A stretch of 12,067 bases of DNA, from assembly GCA_015484715.1 (NCBI GenBank), contig WFUY01000584.1, forward strand, positions 1 through 12,067. Reading direction: 5' to 3'. Under the pieces are notes generated by a model. It was not told where the DNA came from and ran no database searches. It saw only the letters and a list, made by a program, of their open reading frames with translations. A program made the position numbers and the translations under genes. Shown here piece by piece: positions 1 through 12,034 of the stretch (the stretch's first letter is position 1; each line of letters starts with the position of its first letter). This stretch comes from Thermoflexales bacterium (GTDB lineage Bacteria; Chloroflexota; Anaerolineae; S140-20).

Positions 1-633
1 CCCCTTGCCTCCCAGGCCCACCGGCCATTCCACCGACTTCCCGGCCCCGACCTCCTGCTCCCACGTCGGGCTGACCAGGCTCAGGTAGTGGGTGAACAGG
101 AAGGTGGTCCCGGAGCCGTCGGAGCGGTGGGCCACGACGATCTCCTGGTCGGGCAGGGCCAGGTCCGGGTTCAGCGCCGTCAGCCGGGGGTCGTTCCAGC
201 GGGTGACCCGACCCAGGAAGATGTCGGCCAAGAGGTCGGGCGAGAGCTTCAGCCCCTTGGGAATGGGGTTGCCCTGGGCATCCTGGAGGTTGTAAGCGAC
301 GACCACGCCGCCGGCCACCGTGGGGAAGAGCCGCAGGTCTGGGGCCGCTGCCTTCTCCTCCTCGGTCAGAATCGCGTCCGACGCTCCAAAGTCCACCGTC
401 CTGGCCATGATCTGGCGGATGCCGCCGCCGGAGCCGATGGACTGGTAGTTGAAGCGGACGGTGGGGTCTACCGAGGTGTACTCGTAGAACCAGCGGGAGT
501 AGAGGGGGAAGGGGAAAGTCGCTCCGGCGCCGGTGATCTGGACGGTGTCTGTTGGAGTGGAGGAACCGCCGCCACAAGCGGTCAGGATCAGCGTGAGGAT
601 GAGGATCAGGCCCAGCAGGGGTAGGTTGCGCAT
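1..633 (-). CDS. pstS: Phosphate ABC transporter substrate-binding lipoprotein PstS (3' end missing)
   Basis: This is the N-terminal 211 residues of a periplasmic-type phosphate-binding protein that would deliver inorganic phosphate to the PstCAB importer. The start ATG (633-631) has a good Shine-Dalgarno GGAGG at 639-643. A hydrophobic signal segment (residues 4-18) ends in the lipobox LTAC with the lipidated Cys at 20, so the protein should be membrane anchored. PstS-type ligand-binding motifs follow in the usual order: GAGATFPFPLYSRW (from residue 35), YQSIGSGGG, DFGASDA and RSDGSGTT. Family members are usually about 320-380 residues, so roughly the last third lies beyond the left edge. 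The gene is read leftward and diverges from the leader and opine dehydrogenase on the other strand. pstC, pstA and pstB are expected downstream but cannot be seen. Confidence 0.95.
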   Translation of the reverse strand, partial: MRNLPLLGLILILTLILTACGGGSSTPTDTVQITGAGATFPFPLYSRWFYEYTSVDPTVRFNYQSIGSGGGIRQIMARTVDFGASDAILTEEEKAAAPDLRLFPTVAGGVVVAYNLQDAQGNPIPKGLKLSPDLLADIFLGRVTRWNDPRLTALNPDLALPDQEIVVAHRSDGSGTTFLFTHYLSLVSPTWEQEVGAGKSVEWPVGLGGKG

Positions 634-1473: not shown

Positions 1474-2778
1474 ATGCGAGGATCAAGGGAAACCGAGACG
1501 CCATATCGTGAGGCCGTGCCCCAGACCTGGTCCACCGGTCCTGGGGACGAGGACCTGCAGGTCACCATCTGCGGGGGGGGCAATGCCGCCCATCTGCTGG
1601 CCGGCTTGCTCTCCACCCGTCCGGGACTGCGGGTCAACGTTTACGCCCCCTACGGCGATGAGGCCCAGCGGATGCGCCAGGGCATCGCCCGTCGTGGGGG
1701 GATCGTCGTGGTTGCCGCCGAGGAGCGGTGGGTGGGACGTCCCCACCGGGTCAGTGCCGATCCGTCTCAGGTGGTGCCCGGTTCGGGGTTGGTGATGCTG
1801 GCGCTGCCTGCCTTCGCCCACGAGATCGTCCTGCGCGACATCGCACCCTACCTGGACGAGGGGGCCTGGGTGGGCGCCCTTCCCGCTCGGGGCGGCTTCG
1901 ATTGGTGCGCCTTTGACGTCCTGGGGGAGAAAGGGAGTGCGCTGATCCTCTTTGGCTTGCAGACACTGCCCTGGGCTTGCCGCCTCCGCACCTACGGCGA
2001 GGAGGTGGCGCTCCTGGGGACGAAGAAGCGGGTGGACCTGGCCACTTGGCCGCCCCACTATGCCGGCAAGGTGGCCCGTCGGCTGAGCGACCTCCTGGGG
2101 GTGCGCCTGCAGCCCATCCCCAACTTCCTGAGCATCACGCTGGCCAACACCGGGCAACTGATCCACCCCGGTGTGATGTACGGGATGTTCCGGAATTGGG
2201 ATGGTCACCCCTACGCCAAGGCCCCCCTCTTCTACCAGGCCGTGGACGGCCCCACTGCCCAGATCCTGCAGCGGTTGAGCGACGAGGTCCAGACCCTGCG
2301 GGAGGTGCTGGAGCACCGCTTCCCCCATCTGGACCTCTCGGCGGTGCGCCCCTTGGACGAGTGGCTGCGGGAGTCGTACCGGGACACCATCACCGATCCC
2401 TCGACGCTCCAGAGCTGCCTGGTCACCAACCGCAGCTACGCCGGCCTCAACGTCCCGATGCGCCGCGCCGATGACGGGCTGGTGCCGGACTTCCGGGCCC
2501 GCTACCTCTCGGAGGACGTGCCCTACGGCCTGGTCGTCACCCGGGGCATCGCCGAACTGGCCGGCGTCGCCACGCCCACGATGGACCAGGTGATCGGCTG
2601 GGCCCAAGCCCGTCTTGCCCGGGAGTACCTGGTCAACGGCCACCTGCAGGGGCGGGACCTGGGGGCTTCCCGTGCGCCCCAGCGCTACCATCTGGAGACG
2701 CTGGAGGCGGTGGTCAAGGGTCAGGAAGAGGTGCCCTCTTACGTCCTCCCGGCGGCCCGGGTGCCGGTTCAAGCCTGA
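1474..2778 (+). CDS. NAD(P)-dependent opine dehydrogenase (octopine/nopaline dehydrogenase family)
   Basis: This 434-residue cytosolic enzyme should catalyse reversible reductive condensation of an amino acid with a 2-oxo acid, using NAD(P)H. The N-terminal Rossmann domain begins near residue 28 with the nucleotide-binding loop GGGNAAH (34-40). The octopine-dehydrogenase domain follows, with LANTGQLIHPG containing the likely catalytic His231, then GVMYGMFRNWDG and the C-terminal signature DVPYGLVVTRGIAELAGVAT. I chose ATG 1474 over the upstream in-frame GTG at 1411 because GAGGAGGTGAGG lies just before it and homology begins well after it. The first 27 residues look unstructured. A strong hairpin follows the stop, and the B12-mutase fusion gene starts 262 bp downstream on the same strand. 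The family call is firm; the opine is unknown, and other family members act in metallophore synthesis or amino-acid catabolism. Confidence 0.85.
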   Translation: MRGSRETETPYREAVPQTWSTGPGDEDLQVTICGGGNAAHLLAGLLSTRPGLRVNVYAPYGDEAQRMRQGIARRGGIVVVAAEERWVGRPHRVSADPSQVVPGSGLVMLALPAFAHEIVLRDIAPYLDEGAWVGALPARGGFDWCAFDVLGEKGSALILFGLQTLPWACRLRTYGEEVALLGTKKRVDLATWPPHYAGKVARRLSDLLGVRLQPIPNFLSITLANTGQLIHPGVMYGMFRNWDGHPYAKAPLFYQAVDGPTAQILQRLSDEVQTLREVLEHRFPHLDLSAVRPLDEWLRESYRDTITDPSTLQSCLVTNRSYAGLNVPMRRADDGLVPDFRARYLSEDVPYGLVVTRGIAELAGVATPTMDQVIGWAQARLAREYLVNGHLQGRDLGASRAPQRYHLETLEAVVKGQEEVPSYVLPAARVPVQA

Positions 2779-2814
2779 CGGGCGCCAAGGGGAGACGGGC
2801 CAGCGCTGGAGGCC

Positions 2815-2857
2815 CGGGGAGGGGCGCCGACCGTGCCCCTCCCCGATAACTTTTGTT
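2815..2857 (+). terminator. Hairpin terminator after the opine dehydrogenase
   Basis: An 11-bp perfect G/C-rich stem (2815-2825 with 2835-2845) with a 9-base loop is followed by ATAACTTTTGTT. It starts 37 bp after the opine dehydrogenase stop codon. It would end or reduce transcription before the mutase gene, so that gene may have its own promoter or be expressed at a lower level. Confidence 0.6.
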
Positions 2858-2870
2858 AGGCGAAGTAACG

Positions 2871-2976
2871 GTTCACCCTCCCGCAGGTTAGGCGTGTTTC
2901 CGACGCGAAACCGTAGGTCAAATAGCCCATCGGGGCTGAGAGCGCCCTCGACCGGTGACCTGCGGGAGGGTAGGCT
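2871..2976 (+). repeat. 106-bp terminal-inverted-repeat element, copy 1
   Basis: The element has 14-bp perfect terminal inverted repeats, ACCCTCCCGCAGGT near the left end and ACCTGCGGGAGGGT near the right end. It is 97/106 identical to the inverted copy at 7845-7950. Inside are small hairpins: GTTTC/GAAAC, and AGCCC-ATCG-GGGCT, which is perfect in this copy. It fills most of the space between the opine dehydrogenase terminator and the mutase ATG, ending 64 bp before that ATG. No reading frame of note is inside. It may be a MITE-like non-autonomous element, a REP-type repeat, or a repeated structured RNA leader, since both copies face their downstream gene the same way. Confidence 0.75.
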
Positions 2977-3040
2977 GAATAGATACGGCGCGAATTGGCT
3001 TCTTGTGCCTTGCAACTTGCAACCAAAACGAGGTAGGACG

Positions 3041-6000
3041 ATGACGAAGGACAACGGACGACCCAAGGAAGCAGCAGCAGCCGAGGATAAGCCTCCAGAA
3101 CCCGGACGGAAGCGGCGGGTGATGGTAGGGGCCATCGGCAAGTGCGTGCACAACCTGGGCGTGGAAACCTTTGCCGACTGGATGGAGGACCAGGGGCTGG
3201 ACTACGTCTCCGTCAAGCTGGGGCCGGCCGTTCCCATCCGGGAGGTGATCAACAAGATTCGGGAGGCCCGGCCCGAGGTGGTGGGCGTCTCGATGCGCCT
3301 GGGCGACCTGCACGTGGACCGACTGATCGGAGAGTTCATCGAGCTGGCGACCCGGTACGGTCTGCACCCCCGCGATAGCGGCATCCGCTACGCCTTCGGC
3401 GGGCTGCGGCCGGCGGCCAACGTGGTGCGGGCGATGACGGGGTTGCCTCTGGAGCCGGATCGCTTCACCCGCGAGGAGGAGCAGCATTACGACCTGGAGG
3501 CGCTGGCCGAGGCCTACCGGGACCGGACCTCCTTCCAAGGCTTCTTCGAACTGGTGGCCGATGATTTCATCACGATGGAAGAGCTGGAGCGCTTCGCCCA
3601 CGGGCTGCCGCCGGCCCACCAGGAGGGGCCGATGGCCTGGTCCGACAGCCTGGTCGAGCGCATCCGGCAGGTGCAGGAGCGGGAGAGCCGACCCGCCATC
3701 CGAGCCCACATCGGCATCGCCGCCGAGACGATCGAGCCCACCGTCGAGGCTGTCCAGAAGCTGGCCGACGCCGGCGTGCTGGAGATCGTCTCCCTGGCTC
3801 CCGACCAGACCTCCCAGGAGCTCCTGGCCAAGTTCATCCGGGGCGAGGAGGACCCAGACCGCTACCTGGCCGGCCAGGGTGGGGCCCCCATCCGCAGTGT
3901 CGAGGACCTGAAGCGGCTGAAGGCGGCCACCCGGCGGGGCAATCACCCCCTCACCCGCATCTACACGGGCACCGACGAACTGCTGGAGCTGGCCAAGCTG
4001 TGGGAAGAGCACCTCAACATCGCTTTCCCGGCGGTGCCCATCTTCTTCTACAACGAACTGGACGGGCGGGGACCGCTCAGCATCCGGGACGCCTTCGACG
4101 AGCACTTCCGCGTCATCGAGTGGTGGGCTCAGCAGGGCAAACCCCTGGAGATCAACGATCCCCACCAGTGGGGGCTCCGCTACGCCAGCGACGACATGCA
4201 GGTCGCCGACCACGTCCTCTGCGCCGTGATCGCCCTGAAGAAAGGGATCCGCCACTACGTGATGCAGATGATGTTCGAACTGCCCCCGACCATCTCCGCC
4301 TTGGACGATCTGGCGAAGATGAAGGCAGCCTACGAGTTGATCGAGCCCCTGACCCGCCACTTCGACTTCCACATCATCCGGCAGACCCGCTCCGGCCTGC
4401 CCAGCTTTCCCCCCAACCTGAACCAGGCCAAAGGCCACCTCGCCTTCGGCGTCTACACCCAGCTCTACATGGAGCCCGACATCCTCCACGTCGTCACCTA
4501 CTCGGAGGCCCACCATGAGGCGACGGCCGAGGACATCATCGAGGCCTGCGAGATCGTCCACCAGGTCTGCTGGGACTTCGCCAAAGGGGCCGTGCCCGAC
4601 ATCTGGGCCGATCCGGTCCTGAAAGCTCGCAAGCGGGAACTAAAGGAAGGGGCGATGTACAATCTGCTCCACGGAGCCATCCTGGGCGGTTACGTCGGCC
4701 CCATCACGCCGGAGACCTTTTGGGCCTGGGCCCGGGAGCCGGAGGAGGACCCGGAGCGGAACTTCGGGACGATGCTTCTCAGCTTCATAGACGAGGCCAA
4801 CTACCTGACGGGCACCTGCGGCCTCATCGCCGCCGATACGCTGGACCTGGGGCTCCAGATCGGCCTCTACCAGGGGCCGCACATCACCGTGGTGGACCGA
4901 CGCTACGAGCTGGCGGGGGCCTGCCGCACCAAGGTGGTGGATGGGATGTGTCGCATCGAGGCTTGGAACGGCATCCCGGTGGGCAGCGAGTTCGAGCGGG
5001 TGGACCTGGTGCGCCAGCACTTCCCCTGGTACTTCGACCGGGAGATCAGCCACGCCGAACACGTCAGTTTCATCGCCGACGACGCCGAGGTGGAGCGGCT
5101 GGACGAGGAGACGGTGGCCCAGTTCCGTAGAGGGATCGGCGTCACCGGGCTGGCCGACGAGCGGGTCCTGGTGGTGGATTTTGGAAGCACCTTCACCAAG
5201 ATCGGCCTCTTTGACACCCGGCAGGAGACCTTCGAGTTGCGCTACGTGCCCACCACCGTGGAGGACATCCGCATCGGGCTGGCCCACGGGCTGGGGGTGC
5301 TGGAGGCATGTCGGGAGCGGGGCGACTGGAAGCCGCTGGCCCAGAAGATGGACGAGTTCGCGGTGCGGCTCCCCTGCTCCAGCGCCAAGGGAGGGCTCAA
5401 GGTCGCCACCGTGGCCTTGGTCAAAGAGGAGTCCGGCTTCGCCGCCGAGCTGGCAGCCCTGACGGCGGGGGCCAAGCTGGTGGGCAGCTACGAGGGGCCG
5501 TTGACGCCGGAGCAGGCCCGGGCCATCTACGAGGTGGACCAGCCGGAGATCATCCTGCTGGCCGGCGGCACCGACCAGGGGGGCGACGCCGAGACCCAAC
5601 TCCACAACGCCCGGATGCTGGCGGAGGCGGCCCGCTACGCCACCTACACCGACTACGGCGTGCCGGTGGTCTACGCCGGCAACCAGGACGTGCGCGGACA
5701 GGTGGAGCGCATCTTCCGCGCCCACGGTGTGGACGTCCGCGTGACGCCCAACGTGATGCCGGAGATCAACGAGTTCCACATTGAGGCGGTCAACGAGGCC
5801 CTGCGGGAGCTCTTCCAGACGGTGATCATCCGGGCCAAGGGGTTCGATGTCGTCGAGGCCTATATGGATGCTCCCTTCATCCCCACCCCTCGGGCGGCCT
5901 TCCTGGGGATCAACCTGCTGGCCCAAGGGTATGGCAGCGAGGAAGGGTTGGGCAACATCCTGGCCCTGGACATCGGCGGCGCGACGACGGACTTCTACTC

Positions 6001-6769
6001 CCACGTTGCCGACAACCCCCTCTACCTCTTCCCCGGCGACGATCCCCGACGCCGGGTGAAGCGGACGATCCTGAAGACGCCCAACACGCCTCTGGTCTAC
6101 CGGCGGGTGGAGGGGAAGTACGGCCTGAGCTACAACGCCGAGAACGTGAAGGAGTTGAGCCGCTTCCAGGACGGGTCGCTGGCCCGGGACCTGAGCCGCT
6201 ACTTGGTGCGCCGGTTCCCTCTGGAGTTCGGGCCGGGTCACGACCAGTTCCGCCGCTTTGTGCGCAGCGACAACGGCTCGTACCGGGTGGACCTGGACCG
6301 TTACCTGACCTGGCTCAGCGAGAACCCCCACACGGTGCCCCGGACGGCGTTGGAGAACGCCGCCCGTTCCTTCCTGGCCCGGGAGATCATGGCGGTGACG
6401 ACGCGCAAGCACGCCGGACGGGTGGAGGAGACGGAGGCCTACTTCTTCCAGTACGGCGTCAACTTCTTCAACCAGCCGGTGACGGTCCTGCTCATCGGCG
6501 GGACCATCTACCACAAGTACCGCGATCGGGAGCCGGGCTATGAGGAGGACCTGGCTCTCATCGCCGGCGGCGTGCTCTACAATCCCGAGGAACCGGAGGT
6601 GCTGCGCCCCACGGGGCCGGTGCTGATGGATGCCCGCTACCTGGTCAGCATCCTGGGCGGGCTCTACGGACGGGTGAACCCGGAGCAGGCGCTGCGGGTG
6701 ATGAAGCGGGAGCTGGTGCCGCTGGAGGTGGGAGTGCCGGTGCAGGAGCGGGTTCCTGTAGCGGCGTAG
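3041..6769 (+). CDS. Fused adenosylcobalamin-dependent mutase: MutS-, MutE- and MutL-like domains in one chain
   Basis: The 1242-residue protein reads as three glutamate-mutase-type components in one polypeptide. Residues 26-160 form a B12-binding domain: GKCVHNLG supplies the cobalt-ligand His37 (with Cys35 where the usual DxHxxG has Asp), and SMRL (84-87) and FGG follow. Residues about 225-690 resemble the TIM-barrel catalytic subunit GlmE/MutE, with YN at 337-338 and INDPHQWGL around 371-379. Residues about 705-1225 are a MutL/GlmL-family ATPase of the actin/ASKHA type: VVDFGSTFTKIGLF (from 710), LLAGGTDQGG and DIGGATTDFYS (from 977). MutL proteins are thought to reactivate or assist such mutases. 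These parts are normally separate proteins of about 140, 480 and 460 residues. ATG 3041 is preceded by GAGG at a proper distance; the frame stays open upstream to 2615 only by running through the repeat and the previous gene. Domain assignments are strong for S and L, moderate for E; the substrate is unknown. Confidence 0.85.
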   Translation: MTKDNGRPKEAAAAEDKPPEPGRKRRVMVGAIGKCVHNLGVETFADWMEDQGLDYVSVKLGPAVPIREVINKIREARPEVVGVSMRLGDLHVDRLIGEFIELATRYGLHPRDSGIRYAFGGLRPAANVVRAMTGLPLEPDRFTREEEQHYDLEALAEAYRDRTSFQGFFELVADDFITMEELERFAHGLPPAHQEGPMAWSDSLVERIRQVQERESRPAIRAHIGIAAETIEPTVEAVQKLADAGVLEIVSLAPDQTSQELLAKFIRGEEDPDRYLAGQGGAPIRSVEDLKRLKAATRRGNHPLTRIYTGTDELLELAKLWEEHLNIAFPAVPIFFYNELDGRGPLSIRDAFDEHFRVIEWWAQQGKPLEINDPHQWGLRYASDDMQVADHVLCAVIALKKGIRHYVMQMMFELPPTISALDDLAKMKAAYELIEPLTRHFDFHIIRQTRSGLPSFPPNLNQAKGHLAFGVYTQLYMEPDILHVVTYSEAHHEATAEDIIEACEIVHQVCWDFAKGAVPDIWADPVLKARKRELKEGAMYNLLHGAILGGYVGPITPETFWAWAREPEEDPERNFGTMLLSFIDEANYLTGTCGLIAADTLDLGLQIGLYQGPHITVVDRRYELAGACRTKVVDGMCRIEAWNGIPVGSEFERVDLVRQHFPWYFDREISHAEHVSFIADDAEVERLDEETVAQFRRGIGVTGLADERVLVVDFGSTFTKIGLFDTRQETFELRYVPTTVEDIRIGLAHGLGVLEACRERGDWKPLAQKMDEFAVRLPCSSAKGGLKVATVALVKEESGFAAELAALTAGAKLVGSYEGPLTPEQARAIYEVDQPEIILLAGGTDQGGDAETQLHNARMLAEAARYATYTDYGVPVVYAGNQDVRGQVERIFRAHGVDVRVTPNVMPEINEFHIEAVNEALRELFQTVIIRAKGFDVVEAYMDAPFIPTPRAAFLGINLLAQGYGSEEGLGNILALDIGGATTDFYSHVADNPLYLFPGDDPRRRVKRTILKTPNTPLVYRRVEGKYGLSYNAENVKELSRFQDGSLARDLSRYLVRRFPLEFGPGHDQFRRFVRSDNGSYRVDLDRYLTWLSENPHTVPRTALENAARSFLAREIMAVTTRKHAGRVEETEAYFFQYGVNFFNQPVTVLLIGGTIYHKYRDREPGYEEDLALIAGGVLYNPEEPEVLRPTGPVLMDARYLVSILGGLYGRVNPEQALRVMKRELVPLEVGVPVQERVPVAA

Positions 6770-6834: not shown

Positions 6835-7764
6835 TCATCGGCCTGCAGGCTGCCACTGGGGATGGATGTCATCGGCGGGGTGGTTGGTGAGGCGGATTGG
6901 GTTGGAACCGTCAGCATTCATCACGTAGATCTCGGGGTTGCCATCCCGGTCGGAGACGAAGACGATCTTCGAGCCATCGGGGGACCAGGCGGGATCGCCA
7001 TCGTTGGCCGGATTGCGGGTGATGTTGGTCAGCGTCCCATCGGCCAGATCGAGCAGGTAGATCTCCATATTGCCCTCCCGGTCGCTCATGAAGGCGATCT
7101 TTGAGCCGTCAGGCGACCAGGCCGGGTTCATATCCTGAGCCGGGTTGTTCGTCAGGTTGACTTCGGTGTGGTCAGGCCCCAGGACGTAGATCTCGGGATT
7201 CCCATCGCGAACGCTCATGAAGACGATGGATTGCCCATCGGGAGACCAGGACCCGTACATATCGAGCCCCAGTTGGCTGGTGCGGCGGGTGAGGTCACGG
7301 CCATCAGCCCCCACCGTCCACAGCTTCGTGTTGGCCGTCACCTCGATGCTCCCCCCTTCGATGGGCTCGTAGTAGGTGCGGTTGGAGGAGAAGAGGATCT
7401 GGGAGCCGTCGGGCGACCAGGCCGGCACCACGTTGAACCCGATCCCATCGGTTAGGCGGGTGGTCTCCGTCCCATCGGCCTTCATCACGTAGATGTCCGG
7501 GGAGCCCTCCCGTTCCGAGGTGAAGGCGATCCGCTGACCATCGGGTGCCCAGCTCGGTGTCCCGTCATAGGCTGGGTTGTTGGTCAGGTTCACCAGGTTG
7601 GAACCGTCGGCGTCCATGATGTAGACCTCGGCGTTGCCATCGCGGTAGGACTCGAAGGCGATCTTGCCGAGGGGGACCGTTGAGGAGCGGCATCCCACCG
7701 CCGTGGAGAGCAGGGCCGCGGTCAGCAGGAGGGTGCAGATTTGGAGGCATCGTCGAATGTCCAT
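6835..7764 (-). CDS. TolB/PD40-type beta-propeller lipoprotein
   Basis: The 309-residue protein has a hydrophobic signal (residues 6-20) and a lipobox-like AVGC with Cys25, so it is probably an exported lipoprotein. The rest is WD40-like PD40 repeats: five copies of a W[AS]PDG motif followed by a hydrophobic strand (such as WSPDGSKIAF), each followed by a DG-N-EIYV-D-DG strand. The chain ends at a partial WQPAGR, and the first strand GKIAFESYRDG would complete that blade, giving a six-bladed ring closed by a velcro strand. I chose ATG 7764, which has AGGGAG upstream. Starting at 7866 would add residues encoded by the 106-bp repeat. The fold resembles the propeller of TolB, but no tol/pal neighbours are present and the N-terminal TolB domain is missing. 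A binding or scaffold role outside the membrane is likely; the partner is unknown. Confidence 0.85.
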   Translation of the reverse strand: MDIRRCLQICTLLLTAALLSTAVGCRSSTVPLGKIAFESYRDGNAEVYIMDADGSNLVNLTNNPAYDGTPSWAPDGQRIAFTSEREGSPDIYVMKADGTETTRLTDGIGFNVVPAWSPDGSQILFSSNRTYYEPIEGGSIEVTANTKLWTVGADGRDLTRRTSQLGLDMYGSWSPDGQSIVFMSVRDGNPEIYVLGPDHTEVNLTNNPAQDMNPAWSPDGSKIAFMSDREGNMEIYLLDLADGTLTNITRNPANDGDPAWSPDGSKIVFVSDRDGNPEIYVMNADGSNPIRLTNHPADDIHPQWQPAGR

Positions 7765-7783
7765 AGGGCTCCCTAAAACGGTT

Positions 7784-7814
7784 CGGCCCGGTGGCCTGCC
7801 GGGCGCCCGGGCCG
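7784..7814 (-). promoter_or_regulatory. G/C-rich hairpin in the propeller gene leader
   Basis: CGGCCCGG (7784-7791) pairs with CCGGGCCG (7807-7814) around a 15-base loop; the loop and right arm also contain the palindrome CCGGGCGCCCGG (7799-7810). It lies 20 bp before the ATG of the propeller lipoprotein gene and close to its Shine-Dalgarno sequence. It could influence translation or be incidental in such GC-rich DNA. Confidence 0.3.
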
Positions 7815-7844
7815 GAGGGTGGCTCGACGGGGAGAGGGAGTTAT

Positions 7845-7950
7845 AGCCTACCCTCCCGCAGGTCACCGGTTGAGGGCGCTTTCAGTCCCGATGGGCTGTT
7901 TGAAGCACGGTTTCGCATCGGAAACGCGCCTAACCTGCGGGAGGGTGAAC
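7845..7950 (-). repeat. 106-bp terminal-inverted-repeat element, copy 2
   Basis: This is the inverted copy of the element at 2871-2976, the same length and differing at 9 positions, mostly transitions. The differences do not look like compensatory base-pair changes; one breaks a pair in the AGCCC/GGGCT hairpin. It starts 19 bp after the OppC-type permease stop codon and ends 80 bp before the propeller ATG. At its gene-proximal edge the minus strand reads TATAAC (7845-7840), a possible -10 box created at the junction, but no properly spaced -35 box is evident. Confidence 0.75.
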
Positions 7951-7969: not shown

Positions 7970-9004
7970 CTACTCCCCCCGTAGTCGGGGGTCGAAGGCG
8001 TCGCGGAGGCCATCGCCCAGGAAGTTGAAGGCCAAGGTGGTGAGCGTCAGCGCCAGGGCCGGCACGAAGACTTCGTGGGGGTAAGTCCGCAACGCCTGAT
8101 AGGTCTCCGAGATCATCAGCCCCCAACTGGGGGTGGGCGGGTTGACGCCCAGGCCGATGAAGCTGAGGAAGGCCTCCAGGAAGATGTAGCCGGGGATGGC
8201 CAGGGTCTCCGCCACGATGCAGGGGCCCAGGATGTTGGGCAGCAGATGGCGGAAGATGATGCGCCGGTTGGTGGCTCCGACGGCCCGGGCTGCCTCGACG
8301 AATTCCTTCTCCTTGTAGGAGAGGGTCTGGCCGCGGGCGATGCGGGCCATGCCCAGCCAGTTGACCAGGCCCAGGGCGATAAAGAGGAAGAACATCCCGC
8401 CCATCGCCTTGTCAATGTTGATGAAGAGATTGGCGATCCCCCCACCGCCACCTCGCCGGGAGAGGGCCTTGAAGTAGACCTGCATCAGGATGATGAAGAT
8501 GATGAGAGGGAAGCCGTAGAGGAAGTCCACGAAGCGCATCATCAGGTTGTCCACGCGGGTGCTGGAATAACCTGAGATGAGGCCGTAGGTGATGCCCACG
8601 ACGAGGCTCACGAAGGCCGCCACGAAGGCCACGGAGAGCGACACCCGGGTGCCATACAGCGTTCGGCTCAGGATGTCACGGCCCAGGTAATCCACGCCCA
8701 GGAGGTAGAACTTGCCATCCACGGTCCGGGTGAAGAGACCGGTATCGTGGTAGCGGAAGTTGACCTCGGCGAAGTGATAGGGAGCCAGGAGGGGACGGAC
8801 CTCTCCACCGGTGAAGAAGGCGATGACGGTGGTGTCGGTGAAGATGGCGACCAGGATGAGCAGGATGAGGAAGATGCCGCTGATGACGGCGACGCGGTTC
8901 TTCAAAAGCTGCCGGAAGGCATCGGCCAGGGGACTGCGCCCACGCCGGACGGCCTCCTCCAATCGCAATTGAGCCACCTCTTGCGGTGTCGCTTCAGCAG
9001 CCAT
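7970..9004 (-). CDS. oppC: Oligopeptide/dipeptide ABC transporter permease, OppC/DppC type
   Basis: This 344-residue inner-membrane protein is one half of the translocation channel of a peptide-type importer. Six membrane segments can be seen (about 36-56, 118-145, 156-178, 202-222, 260-283 and 311-333), with the OppC-type outer loop LLGVDYLGRDILSR (101-114) after the first. The coupling EAA loop is at 234-257 (EFVEAARAVGATNRR...HLLPN), where an OppD/OppF-type ATPase would dock. Between segments three and four lies an extra glycine-rich stretch (RRGGGGG, residues 183-189), making the protein somewhat longer than the usual 290-310 residues. ATG 9004 has AGGAGG upstream. It follows the OppB-type gene by 41 bp in the same operon. 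Substrate class is inferred from the family and the binding protein. Confidence 0.92.
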   Translation of the reverse strand: MAAEATPQEVAQLRLEEAVRRGRSPLADAFRQLLKNRVAVISGIFLILLILVAIFTDTTVIAFFTGGEVRPLLAPYHFAEVNFRYHDTGLFTRTVDGKFYLLGVDYLGRDILSRTLYGTRVSLSVAFVAAFVSLVVGITYGLISGYSSTRVDNLMMRFVDFLYGFPLIIFIILMQVYFKALSRRGGGGGIANLFINIDKAMGGMFFLFIALGLVNWLGMARIARGQTLSYKEKEFVEAARAVGATNRRIIFRHLLPNILGPCIVAETLAIPGYIFLEAFLSFIGLGVNPPTPSWGLMISETYQALRTYPHEVFVPALALTLTTLAFNFLGDGLRDAFDPRLRGE

Positions 9005-9045: not shown

Positions 9046-10020
9046 CTACTCGTAGCGGATGCGGGGATCCAGCCAGGCGTAGGTGATGTCCACCGCCAGG
9101 TTAGCGACAACCAGCAGCACGGAGTAGAGCAGGGTCGTCCCCATCACGATGGGGTAGTCCCGGTTGTTGACGCTGTCCACGAAGTGCTGCCCCATACCGC
9201 TGATGCCGAAGATCTGCTCAACCACGAAGGTCCCTGTGACGATGGCGGCGAAGAGGGGGCCAAGCACGGTGACGACAGGGATGAGGGCGTTCTTCATCGC
9301 GTGGACGATGATGATGGTGCGCTCTCGCAGCCCCTTGGCCCGGGCTGTGCGGATGTAGTCCTCCCGGATAACCTGCAGCAGGCTGGCTCGCGTCAGCCGG
9401 GCGATGCTGGCCGAGAGCCCGGTCCCCAGAGCCACGGTGGGAAGCACCGCGTGTTTCCAGAAGTTCGAGGTCATCGGAGGGATGAACCCCAGGTAGAACT
9501 GGGTGTAGTCGGCTCCCCACCGGGCGACCGGGAACCAGCCCAGCTTGAGGCCGAAGGCCCAGATGAGGAAGGGGGCGAGGACGATGTTAGGGATGGAAAC
9601 GCCTAGGATGGCGATGAAGGAGCTAAAGTAGTCCACCCAGGTGTTGTGCTTGAGGGCTGCCAGGGTACCTGCTGGTATCCCGATGATCAGGGCCAAGGCT
9701 AGGGAGAGAATGCCCAACTGGAAGGAGACCGGGAAGGTCTGCTTGATGATGTCGTTGACGGTCAGGGAGCGGTAGCGGAAGGAGGGACCCAGGTCTCCGT
9801 GCAGGAGGTCCCACAGCCAGGCAGCGAACTGCTTCCAGAGGGGCCAGTCCAGGTGGTACTTGCGTTCCAGATTCGCCACCACGCTGGGGGGCAAGCTACG
9901 GTCTCCGGCGAAGTCGAAAGGGCCTCCCGGCATCGCTCGGGCCAGCACAAAGGTGACCAGCGCGATAGCGAACAGCACAGGGATGAACCACAAGATGCGT
10001 CGGACGATATATCGGGTCAT
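9046..10020 (-). CDS. oppB: Oligopeptide/dipeptide ABC transporter permease, OppB/DppB type
   Basis: This 324-residue inner-membrane permease pairs with the OppC-type protein encoded next. It opens with the typical MTRYIVRRILWFIPVLF segment (first membrane span about 9-29) and AMPGGPFD, followed by an outer domain with HLDWPLWKQF and GDLGPSF. Further spans lie near 97-120, 134-158, 190-208, 246-270 and 293-315. The ATPase-coupling EAA loop is at 220-244 (DYIRTARAKGLRERTI...AMKN), and the C-terminus LDPRIRYE is typical of OppB/DppB. The start ATG 10020 is preceded by GAGGA. The gene lies 88 bp after the binding-protein gene, with a strong hairpin between them that may lower permease expression relative to the binding protein. 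Length and motifs are standard for the family. Confidence 0.94.
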   Translation of the reverse strand: MTRYIVRRILWFIPVLFAIALVTFVLARAMPGGPFDFAGDRSLPPSVVANLERKYHLDWPLWKQFAAWLWDLLHGDLGPSFRYRSLTVNDIIKQTFPVSFQLGILSLALALIIGIPAGTLAALKHNTWVDYFSSFIAILGVSIPNIVLAPFLIWAFGLKLGWFPVARWGADYTQFYLGFIPPMTSNFWKHAVLPTVALGTGLSASIARLTRASLLQVIREDYIRTARAKGLRERTIIIVHAMKNALIPVVTVLGPLFAAIVTGTFVVEQIFGISGMGQHFVDSVNNRDYPIVMGTTLLYSVLLVVANLAVDITYAWLDPRIRYE

Positions 10021-10108: not shown

Positions 10109-12034
10109 CTACTTGCCCATAGCCGCCTTCTTGGCCTCCCAGTCAATCTTCCACTTCCAGATGTGGAGCCGACCGGGGTCACCCCAGACCCGATCCAGCC
10201 ACGGCTTGCCGACGGCGACACGGGTGTAGTAGTAGATGGGGGCGATGCCTACGATCTCGTCCACGAAGAGCCGCTCGGCCTCCTTGTAGAGCTCCTTCTG
10301 CTTCTCCGGATCGGGCTCGACCTGGGCCTGCTTGGTCAGCTGGGCGAACTTCGCCACCGCCTCGCCAACCTGGGGGTCATCCTCGCTGATGAGAGGCTCG
10401 TTGGCCCCCTCGGTGGGATGGAAGACCTCGTGGATCCAGTTGTTGGCGTGCGGGTAGTCGGCGCACCAGCCCAGCCGATAGACGTTGGGCTTGTCCTCCA
10501 GCGGGCTTTCCCGATCAATGGTCTTCAGGTAGACCCGCCACTCCTGGGTCTCGATGGTGACGTTGATCTTCGGGTAGGCGCTCTTCCACATTGCCTGGAT
10601 GGCCTGGGCGATCCGGGCGTGCCCCTCGCTGACGTTGTGCATCAGCAGGATGTCCAGCCCCTCGCCGTCGGGGTAGCCGGCCTCCTCCAGGAGCTTCTTG
10701 CCCTCGGCAACGGCCTTCTCGTAGCCCCAACCGCCCATATCCTCCGGCAGTGCCCACGGAGCAATGTCGGGATCGAGGGCCGGGGAGCCGAAGTTCAGGG
10801 GGTTGGTGAAGGCGTTGGCCGGGATCTGCCCACCCTTGGTCACCGTCTCGACCAGCGTCTTGCGGTCAATGCCCATCGAGAGCGCCTTGCGCACCCGGAC
10901 ATCATCCGTGGGTGGCTTCTTGGTGATGAAGCCGTAGTAGTAGGTGCAGTTGATGGGCGTGTTGACGAATTCCTTGCTGAGCTGCGGGTCCGCCTTCACC
11001 CGCTCGATCTGGTCCAGCGGCACACCCGCCGTGTCCAGCTCGTTGTCCTCGTAGAGGGCGAAGGCCGTCGAGGCTTCTTCGATCATCACACCGTAGACCT
11101 TCTCGATGTTCCCGGCCTCGTCGGCAAGCTCCTCCCAGCCGTACCACAGCGGGTTCTTCTCCAAGGTCAGGTGATCGCCGTGGACCCACTCGGTCATCAC
11201 GTATGGACCGTTGGTCTGGATGAAGCCCGGCTCGATCCAGCGCTCACCCTTCTCCTCGATGATCCACTGGGGCATCGGGCGGGCGATCCACATGCTGGCG
11301 ATCTGCGGGAAGAAGCCGGCTCCGTACTCCAGGGTGAACTCCACGGTGAAATCATCCACGGCGCGGACCCCCACAGCATCGTAGAGCTCCTGGAAGTTCT
11401 CCGCCTCCGGATCGGCCATGTTCAGGTCCGCGCAGCCCTTGACAATGTAAAGCACATAGGCGTAGTCGGAGCCGGTGCGCGGGTCGCAGGTGCGCTTCAC
11501 GCCGTAGACCACGTCGTGGGCGTTCACAATGCGGACGTTGCCTTCATCGTCGGTGACTTCCTCGACCTGACCGGTGGTGGGGTCGTAGCGCACCCACGGA
11601 ACGTCGTTGCGCATCTTGAAGGTCCAGACTGTCCGGTCCTCGTTGGAAGACCACTCGGTGGCCAATTCGGGGATGGCCTCCATCGTCTCGTCATCGAGGT
11701 CCGTCAAGCCCAGGAAGAGCTCCTCGATGACGCCCACCGAGGTGGTGTCCGTCGCCAGAGAGGGGTCCGCCGTCGGGGGCTCGGTGCCCCAGTTGATGTT
11801 CAGGGTCACCTTCTCCTCGCCGGGGACCGGGGTCGGGGTGACCTCGACGATCTTCTCGACCTCTTTCTCCACGATCTTGGTGACGACCACTGTGGCACCT
11901 TCCTTCTCTACCACCTCGGTGACCACAACGGTCTCCTTGACGACCTGGGGCGTAGGCTGAGCGCAGGCGGAGAGGACCACGCTGGCGATGACCACGAAAG
12001 CCCAGAGGGTCAACCACCTTCTTCGAGCAAGCAT
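10109..12034 (-). CDS. oppA: Peptide ABC transporter substrate-binding lipoprotein (SBP_bac_5, OppA-like)
   Basis: This 641-residue protein captures oligopeptides or similar solutes outside the membrane for the permeases encoded downstream. The signal segment (residues 7-21) ends in the lipobox VLSAC with lipidated Cys24. A tether of about 45 residues follows, rich in Val/Glu/Lys/Thr (VVKETVVVTEVVEKE, then EKEVEKIVEVTPTPVP), which should hold the binding domain away from the membrane. The family-5 domain starts near residue 76 with NINWGTEPPTADPSLATD, and includes NAHDVVYGVKRTCDPRTGSD, VRKALSMGIDRKTLV and the OppA-like GWCADYPHANNW around residue 523. ATG 12034 has a very strong AGGAGGAGGAGG upstream. 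It is first of the visible operon; its promoter lies at or beyond the right edge. Peptides are the family's usual ligand, but other ligands such as sugars or nickel occur in relatives. Confidence 0.93.
   Translation of the reverse strand: MLARRRWLTLWAFVVIASVVLSACAQPTPQVVKETVVVTEVVEKEGATVVVTKIVEKEVEKIVEVTPTPVPGEEKVTLNINWGTEPPTADPSLATDTTSVGVIEELFLGLTDLDDETMEAIPELATEWSSNEDRTVWTFKMRNDVPWVRYDPTTGQVEEVTDDEGNVRIVNAHDVVYGVKRTCDPRTGSDYAYVLYIVKGCADLNMADPEAENFQELYDAVGVRAVDDFTVEFTLEYGAGFFPQIASMWIARPMPQWIIEEKGERWIEPGFIQTNGPYVMTEWVHGDHLTLEKNPLWYGWEELADEAGNIEKVYGVMIEEASTAFALYEDNELDTAGVPLDQIERVKADPQLSKEFVNTPINCTYYYGFITKKPPTDDVRVRKALSMGIDRKTLVETVTKGGQIPANAFTNPLNFGSPALDPDIAPWALPEDMGGWGYEKAVAEGKKLLEEAGYPDGEGLDILLMHNVSEGHARIAQAIQAMWKSAYPKINVTIETQEWRVYLKTIDRESPLEDKPNVYRLGWCADYPHANNWIHEVFHPTEGANEPLISEDDPQVGEAVAKFAQLTKQAQVEPDPEKQKELYKEAERLFVDEIVGIAPIYYYTRVAVGKPWLDRVWGDPGRLHIWKWKIDWEAKKAAMGK

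Follow-up and report, generated by a model that had tools for sequence, protein, structure and literature searches.

Glutamate mutase (EC 5.4.99.1), made of GlmS and GlmE and accompanied by GlmL/MutL, is distributed over three separate chains. The stand-alone reactivases, GlmL and that of diol dehydratase, are considered to open the enzyme so that the cofactor can be exchanged. A single-chain arrangement is known from IcmF (isobutyryl-CoA mutase fused), in which a nucleotide-driven chaperone, a B12 domain, and a mutase barrel share one polypeptide (PMC10481361). The IcmF chaperone is a MeaB-like GTPase, and the substrate is an acyl-CoA. As for MutL, PMC4682846 names it as a reactivator in one figure legend, whose cited source concerns diol dehydratase. 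The window analyzed here, a stretch of 12,067 nucleotides (contig WFUY01000584.1) from a Thermoflexales bacterium, carries a gene for a 1242-residue protein in which a B12-binding domain (S), a GlmE-like barrel (E), and a MutL-type ATPase (L) follow one another in one chain, next to a gene for an opine dehydrogenase. We computed the domains, fold, motifs, and conservation of this protein, phylogenies compatible with a single origin of the fusion, the partnership with the dehydrogenase, and the active-site pair of that partner. Our reading is that the fusion is probably a GlmE-fold mutase that rearranges carbon skeletons with adenosylcobalamin, acts on an acidic amino acid or its opine, and carries its own ATP-dependent reactivase.

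The comparison with glutamate mutase holds for the three parts themselves, for GlmE as the closest fold, and for an L part that fills PF13941. Unlike glutamate mutase, the fusion is one chain with the B12 domain first, has lost the arginines of the substrate claw and the Asp of the B12 motif (now Cys), and is partnered by an opine dehydrogenase rather than by the methylaspartate pathway. Compared with IcmF, the fusion has a C-terminal MutL-type chaperone and a GlmE-like barrel; a B12 mutase fused to its chaperone is already known from IcmF, and here the chaperone and the mutase are both of another class. The initial annotation had proposed a new architecture, a claim that stands for the fusion with L but not for the S-E fusion, which belongs to a very large family, nor for the joining of mutase and chaperone as such, for which IcmF is the precedent. 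The listings of our open-access literature searches on glutamate mutase and MutL, fusions, reactivation, opine enzymes, and Chloroflexi/Anaerolineae showed no description of this protein.

The S-E-L fusion and its parts

The reading frame has no stop, and upstream of ATG 3041 it stays open back to position 2615; a start at this ATG is supported by a GAGG 8 to 11 bases 5' of it and by the conserved block of the homologues, which begins at residue 24. A database search with the fusion protein returned 446 relatives at E<=1e-3. For these, as for the relatives of the S-E protein, our figures on individual matches cover the 120 listed. Leaving aside the window's own protein, which is among the 120, the remaining 119 share 72-83% identity with it over 97-100% of the query, measure 1198-1284 residues, mostly bear the names 'glutamate mutase L' or 'TIGR01319 family', and, where an organism is given, all come from Chloroflexota. 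Barrel and L are both spanned in 19 of 20 loci from named genome records (19 titles name Chloroflexota groups, one just 'bacterium'), the exception being L023, where the contig ends before L. That the fusion is an artefact of assembly or a frameshift has negligible probability: the sources are mostly metagenome assemblies by title, and two relatives are broken (L004 by an in-frame stop, L021 by a frameshift), but the 119 relatives of equal length, the loci across the junction, and the 12 nearly full-length and two partial fusion genes among 199 genomes of the class contradict it. Because so many listed relatives are equally long and 19 of 20 loci span barrel and L, the fusion is confirmed as real, neither chance nor a mis-join, and the assembly artefact is rejected; the initial annotation, which had named a frameshift or mis-join as one way it could be wrong, was right about the single uninterrupted frame and about the S-E-L order.

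The S domain scores 29.9 bits against PF02310, slightly below the cut-off of 32.1, and its proposed cobalamin ligand, His37, lies in a CVHNLG sequence in which the Asp of the DxHxxG motif, usual in base-off/His-on cobalamin domains, is Cys while His and Gly are kept. This sequence is invariant in the 121 fused proteins fetched, and 113 of 121 S-E relatives have CVHVAG. The barrel has no significant Pfam or NCBIfam match of its own; PF06368 was reached by one of 15 fusion members, with an E value of only 0.055, and neither PF06368 nor TIGR01503 is matched by the fusion above cut-off. We nevertheless place the middle region as GlmE-like, on three grounds: many members of the family of the own-genome S-E paralogue carry PF06368, a profile comparison with controls ties it to GlmE, and a Foldseek search with the predicted structure gave GlmE as its top two matches, followed by OraE, KamD, and methylmalonyl-CoA mutase. 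A relation to GlmE, MutE, or OraE, whose absence would have told against the initial annotation, was thus found. The same fold search bears on the idea that the protein resembles a corrinoid methyltransferase. Some S-E relatives are named 'methionine synthase' in databases, and the B12 domain weakly matches methyltransferase-type corrinoid proteins and methionine synthase, but the predicted fold, nearest to GlmE and then to other adenosylcobalamin mutases, largely contradicts this identity, which we regard as very improbable and have rejected on the strength of that model.

The L part matches PF13941 with 302.2 bits (cut-off 27) along the entire profile (1-450 of 450). Both phosphate motifs noted in the initial annotation, DFGSTFTK (residues 713-720) and DIGGATTDF (977-985), are intact and are common to free MutL. 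The Pfam and NCBIfam matches of the fusion include no GTPase chaperone domain of the MeaB kind. When the fusion was searched by sequence against solved structures, it returned B12 domains and one chance-level chaperonin match; sequence searches yielded no MutL-type reactivase among the solved structures. Within the E-L linker, model residues 650-665 (protein residues 671-686) have a predicted local distance difference test score (pLDDT) below 50; a model of residues 22-1221, with a mean pLDDT of 65.7 and an L part largely below 50, was not used.

An opine dehydrogenase partner and the question of substrate

The partnership with an opine dehydrogenase, which the initial annotation does not mention, is the new element of this analysis and its most interesting part, and it is near-obligate. 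Mutase and dehydrogenase (PF02317) occur together in 66 of the 199 class genomes surveyed, the mutase alone in two, the dehydrogenase alone in five, and neither in 126 (Fisher p 5.6e-44, a statistic that ignores relatedness). This tally leaves out matches to the MutL part only or the B12 part only, such as G022:C26, which would be a third mutase-only genome. Most of the dehydrogenase matches (69 of 84) lie within 3.5 kb of a mutase match, and most mutase matches (64 of 72) within 3.5 kb of a dehydrogenase match. All 13 of the S-E-only loci chosen have the dehydrogenase adjoining S-E. In the window's genome, PF02317 is matched by exactly two genes, and each of them adjoins one of the two mutase genes there.

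The dehydrogenase in the window is 37% identical to Pecten octopine dehydrogenase and retains the equivalents of His212, Arg324, Asp329, and Trp278. Its catalytic pair of His and Asp is present, as is the Arg that senses NADH. For five neighbor enzymes of the ArODH type, one of them next to the own-genome paralogue, identity to ArODH is 38-44%. According to Telek et al. (2024; PMC10787698), a paper in which the word cobalamin is absent, opine dehydrogenases from a hot-spring metagenome (mODHs) prefer L-Asp and L-Glu; the preference was assigned to an Arg/Gly pair (ArODH positions 111 and 198), and double mutants exchanged the Asp/Phe preference. The mODHs share PF02317 and this Arg/Gly pair with the genes beside the mutases, although they are of the ArODH type and the window enzyme is of the octopine type. 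The pair is present in all 44 neighbor dehydrogenases found by open reading frame calling in the clusters (14 octopine type, the window's included, and 30 ArODH type); the cut enzyme of L006 and that of L007, seen by tblastn, are not among these. Among 13 dehydrogenases not within 3.5 kb of a mutase match (13 of 15 such matches, G130:C274 and G134:C345 being left out), five closely similar to the partner types carry the pair and eight divergent ones lack it.

A third position divides the partners by the kind of locus they come from. Glu142 of octopine dehydrogenase holds the guanidinium group (PMC2924402), and this column is Gln in 31 of 31 dehydrogenases from fusion and MutL-cluster loci, versus Glu in 10, Gly in two, and Ala in one of the 13 from S-E-only loci. 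In seven fusion loci that form one clade, a downstream ArODH-type enzyme replaces the upstream octopine-type enzyme and has the same Arg, Gly, and Gln. Two distant types of dehydrogenase with the same three residues in the same setting suggest one shared acidic substrate. Locus L146 (G008:C155), on a contig without a mutase match, also has a dehydrogenase with the Arg, Gly, and Gln of the MutL-cluster type.

Could the fusion be glutamate mutase itself, converting L-glutamate to 3-methylaspartate with altered substrate-binding residues, next to a dehydrogenase that uses glutamate or methylaspartate? The fold comes nearest to that of GlmE, and acidic amino acids suit the Arg/Gly pair of the dehydrogenase. 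The substrate residues of Clostridium cochlearium GlmE are taken here as Arg66, Arg100, and Arg149 (the arginine claw), Glu171, Lys326, and Glu330. In the profile alignment, the three claw arginines fall on His223, Gln259, and Tyr308 of the fusion, and Glu171 and Lys326 on Pro330 and Val485, with Glu330 retained as Glu489. The His, Gln, Tyr, and Val are invariant across the fused and S-E rows aligned, but all four GlmE rows retain Arg100, Arg149, and Lys326. Arg66 and several more of these residues are also missing from one protein above the TIGR01503 equivalog cut-off (L097, in G099), which favors the glutamate mutase identity; that protein does keep Arg100, Arg149, and Lys326. Canonical GlmE occurs in three of the 199 class genomes, and the window's genome has no TIGR01503 match and no canonical GlmE. 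With three of three claw arginines replaced, membership in glutamate mutase is rejected and that identity is unlikely; the protein is filed as GlmE-like and is not supported as glutamate mutase. Elsewhere in the class, canonical GlmS, GlmE, and GlmL genes were seen at L058:4823-12885 (G039:C49), and all three also in L059; the neighbors in L058 are aspartate-kinase-like, aspartate-semialdehyde-dehydrogenase, aminotransferase, and saccharopine-dehydrogenase-like genes, a set that may serve a pathway leading from methylaspartate by way of its semialdehyde.

Distribution, origin, and proposed mechanism

Some match to the fusion is found in 89 of the 199 class genomes, with nearly full-length fusions (>=1190 query residues) in 12 and two further fusion genomes, G011 and G188, on partial contigs. 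Scattered fusion-like gene pieces with a stop, apparently a remnant, lie at G083:C53:45411-46176. In five genomes (G001, G039, G053, G058, and G071), a single operon combines S-E with a free MutL gene and two opine dehydrogenase genes. S-E without a MutL match within 20 kb on the contig is found in 48 other class genomes and in the second mutase gene of the window's genome, a count that uses the MutL matches listed. Of the 58 genomes lacking a MutL match, 20 are listed; at least five of the 48 (G015, G019, G025, G052, and G063) have no PF13941 match at all. In a survey of 400 genomes of the phylum at E<=1e-60, 27 matched, only G000 and G013 with the fusion; S-E occurs among the other matches in six genomes of other classes.

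Two-domain S-E proteins form a very large family (7,971 matches among 7,999 scored), and the window's genome holds one that is 42% identical to the fusion over residues 167-540; the new step is therefore the fusion with L and not that of S with E. These Chloroflexota proteins (PF02310 plus a PF06368-like part) have the same S-E part and the same kind of dehydrogenase neighbor, but lack L, mostly have no MutL nearby, and have neighbors with Glu, Ala, or Gly where those of the fusion have Gln. The duplicate loci L073, L074, L076, and L077 were left out of the analysis. The 14 fused L rows form one clade (100/99) in the L tree and the 12 fused rows one clade (100/100) in the S-E tree, which fits a single origin of the fusion without being proof of it. 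The only PF13941 gene in the window's genome is the fusion. MutL-like PF13941 proteins of about 590 residues (L087-L094) also occur in many class genomes, away from S-E genes and far from GlmL in the tree.

An L part of some other ATPase function, for instance a regulator or cofactor-loading domain rather than a reactivase, would agree with its position on a separate long branch, where identity to free GlmL-type proteins is about 30-33%, and with scores below the GlmL cut-offs. PF13941 is covered in full with both phosphate motifs, however, and the fused L groups with GlmL-type MutL, some of it in operons with S-E, rather than with the 590-residue proteins; we judge another ATPase function decidedly unlikely and retain the reactivase.

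In the mechanism that we envisage for a mutase with its own reactivase, His37 of the S domain would ligate cobalamin even though the usual Asp is Cys, and the E barrel would act on an acidic amino acid or on the opine (N-carboxyalkyl derivative) formed from it, rearranging the carbon skeleton through radicals. Upon damage to the cofactor, the fused L would spend ATP to open the S-E interface and let new cofactor enter. The opine dehydrogenase would couple an acidic amino acid with a keto acid such as pyruvate, or cleave such an opine, and would thereby supply the substrate of the mutase or consume its product. Because an Opp importer shares the operon in many relatives, the pathway more likely takes up opines or peptides and degrades them. 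The cofactor form, substrate, product, direction, and self-reactivation in this scheme are what we infer.

Several observations weigh against it. The Asp of the B12 motif is replaced; the fused rows alone match the GlmE profile weakly (E 0.016); and the fused L reaches 285 bits against an NF040745 GlmL equivalog cut-off of 475 and 197.1 against the TIGR01319 GlmL-family cut-off of 204.05, both of which are passed by the free MutL of L053 and L058. The 48 S-E genomes without nearby MutL, at least five of them without any, indicate that L is not essential to the family. Because the claw residues of GlmE are gone, the case for an acidic substrate comes entirely from the partner enzyme, where the Arg/Gly pair marks related clades and not 44 independent events; one fusion locus, L010, yielded no dehydrogenase. 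The window's Opp genes have the opposite orientation to the fusion, and the RpiR/SIS regulator of relatives was not found there.

More tentatively, these loci may represent a new B12 route, common across the class and present elsewhere in the phylum, in which a mutase of an acidic opine or amino acid forms an obligate pair with an acid-specific opine dehydrogenase, one lineage having fused the reactivase to give a protein that repairs itself or its neighbor. Enzyme and reactivase at 1:1 in one chain would be a natural object for seeing a MutL-type reactivase work, as IcmF is for GTPase chaperones. The pairing also gives a testable function to the many proteins of a family that databases call 'glutamate mutase L' or 'methionine synthase', and the acid-preferring opine dehydrogenases described in 2024 gain a possible biological role.

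Gene neighborhood

Many fusion loci, by open reading frame calling and clustering, contain an RpiR/SIS regulator, the opine dehydrogenase, the fusion, and OppA, OppB, and OppC, along with two genes of about 350 residues that by position take the place of OppD and OppF and a C45-family acyltransferase/hydrolase. The unfused operon starts with a gene for a cyclic-di-AMP-receptor-like protein. The Opp genes of the window are possibly the importer that in relatives lies directly downstream of the fusion and on its strand.

Features of the window and parts of the fusion protein
Feature	Position	Strand	Basis
Periplasmic-binding-protein-like gene, start-less or cut, where relatives have the RpiR regulator	1-633	-	PF12849, 99.7 bits
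Opine dehydrogenase, octopine-dehydrogenase type, 434 residues from ATG 1474	1474..2778	+	PF02317; 302.7 bits to Pecten octopine dehydrogenase
G+C-rich terminator-like hairpin 3' of the dehydrogenase gene, ends approximate	2814..2846	+	RNA fold, sequence
Inverted-repeat element of ~122 bases, like a miniature inverted-repeat transposable element (MITE) or repetitive extragenic palindrome (REP), between dehydrogenase and fusion	about 2865-2987		RNA fold, genome search
S-E-L fusion gene, 1242 residues: cobalamin domain, GlmE-like barrel, MutL/GlmL-type ATPase	3041..6769	+	Translation, Pfam, homologues, profile, fold
S part, B12-binding domain, residues 26-124, with C35-V-H37-x-x-G	3116..3412	+	PF02310, 29.9 bits; motif conservation
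E part, GlmE-like barrel, residues about 199-657	3635..5011	+	
E-L linker, residues about 671-708, variable, partly low-confidence	5051..5164	+	Alignment, structure model
L part, MutL/GlmL-type ATPase, residues 709-1225, with DFGSTFTK and DIGGATTDF	5165..6715	+	PF13941, motifs
PD40/TolB-like beta-propeller gene, between fusion and Opp genes	6835-7866	-	Pfam/NCBIfam
OppC-like permease	7970..9004	-	Pfam/NCBIfam, clusters
OppB-like permease	9046..10020	-	Pfam/NCBIfam, clusters
OppA-like solute-binding protein (SBP_bac_5)	10109..12034	-	Pfam/NCBIfam, clusters

A known riboswitch between dehydrogenase and fusion was considered and rejected, as the stretch has no Rfam match at the gathering score and holds a genome-wide repeat. 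This inverted-repeat element has 41 matches in the 2.99-Mb genome of the window (158 candidates, 40 scored), the 40 others being 90-94% identical to it.

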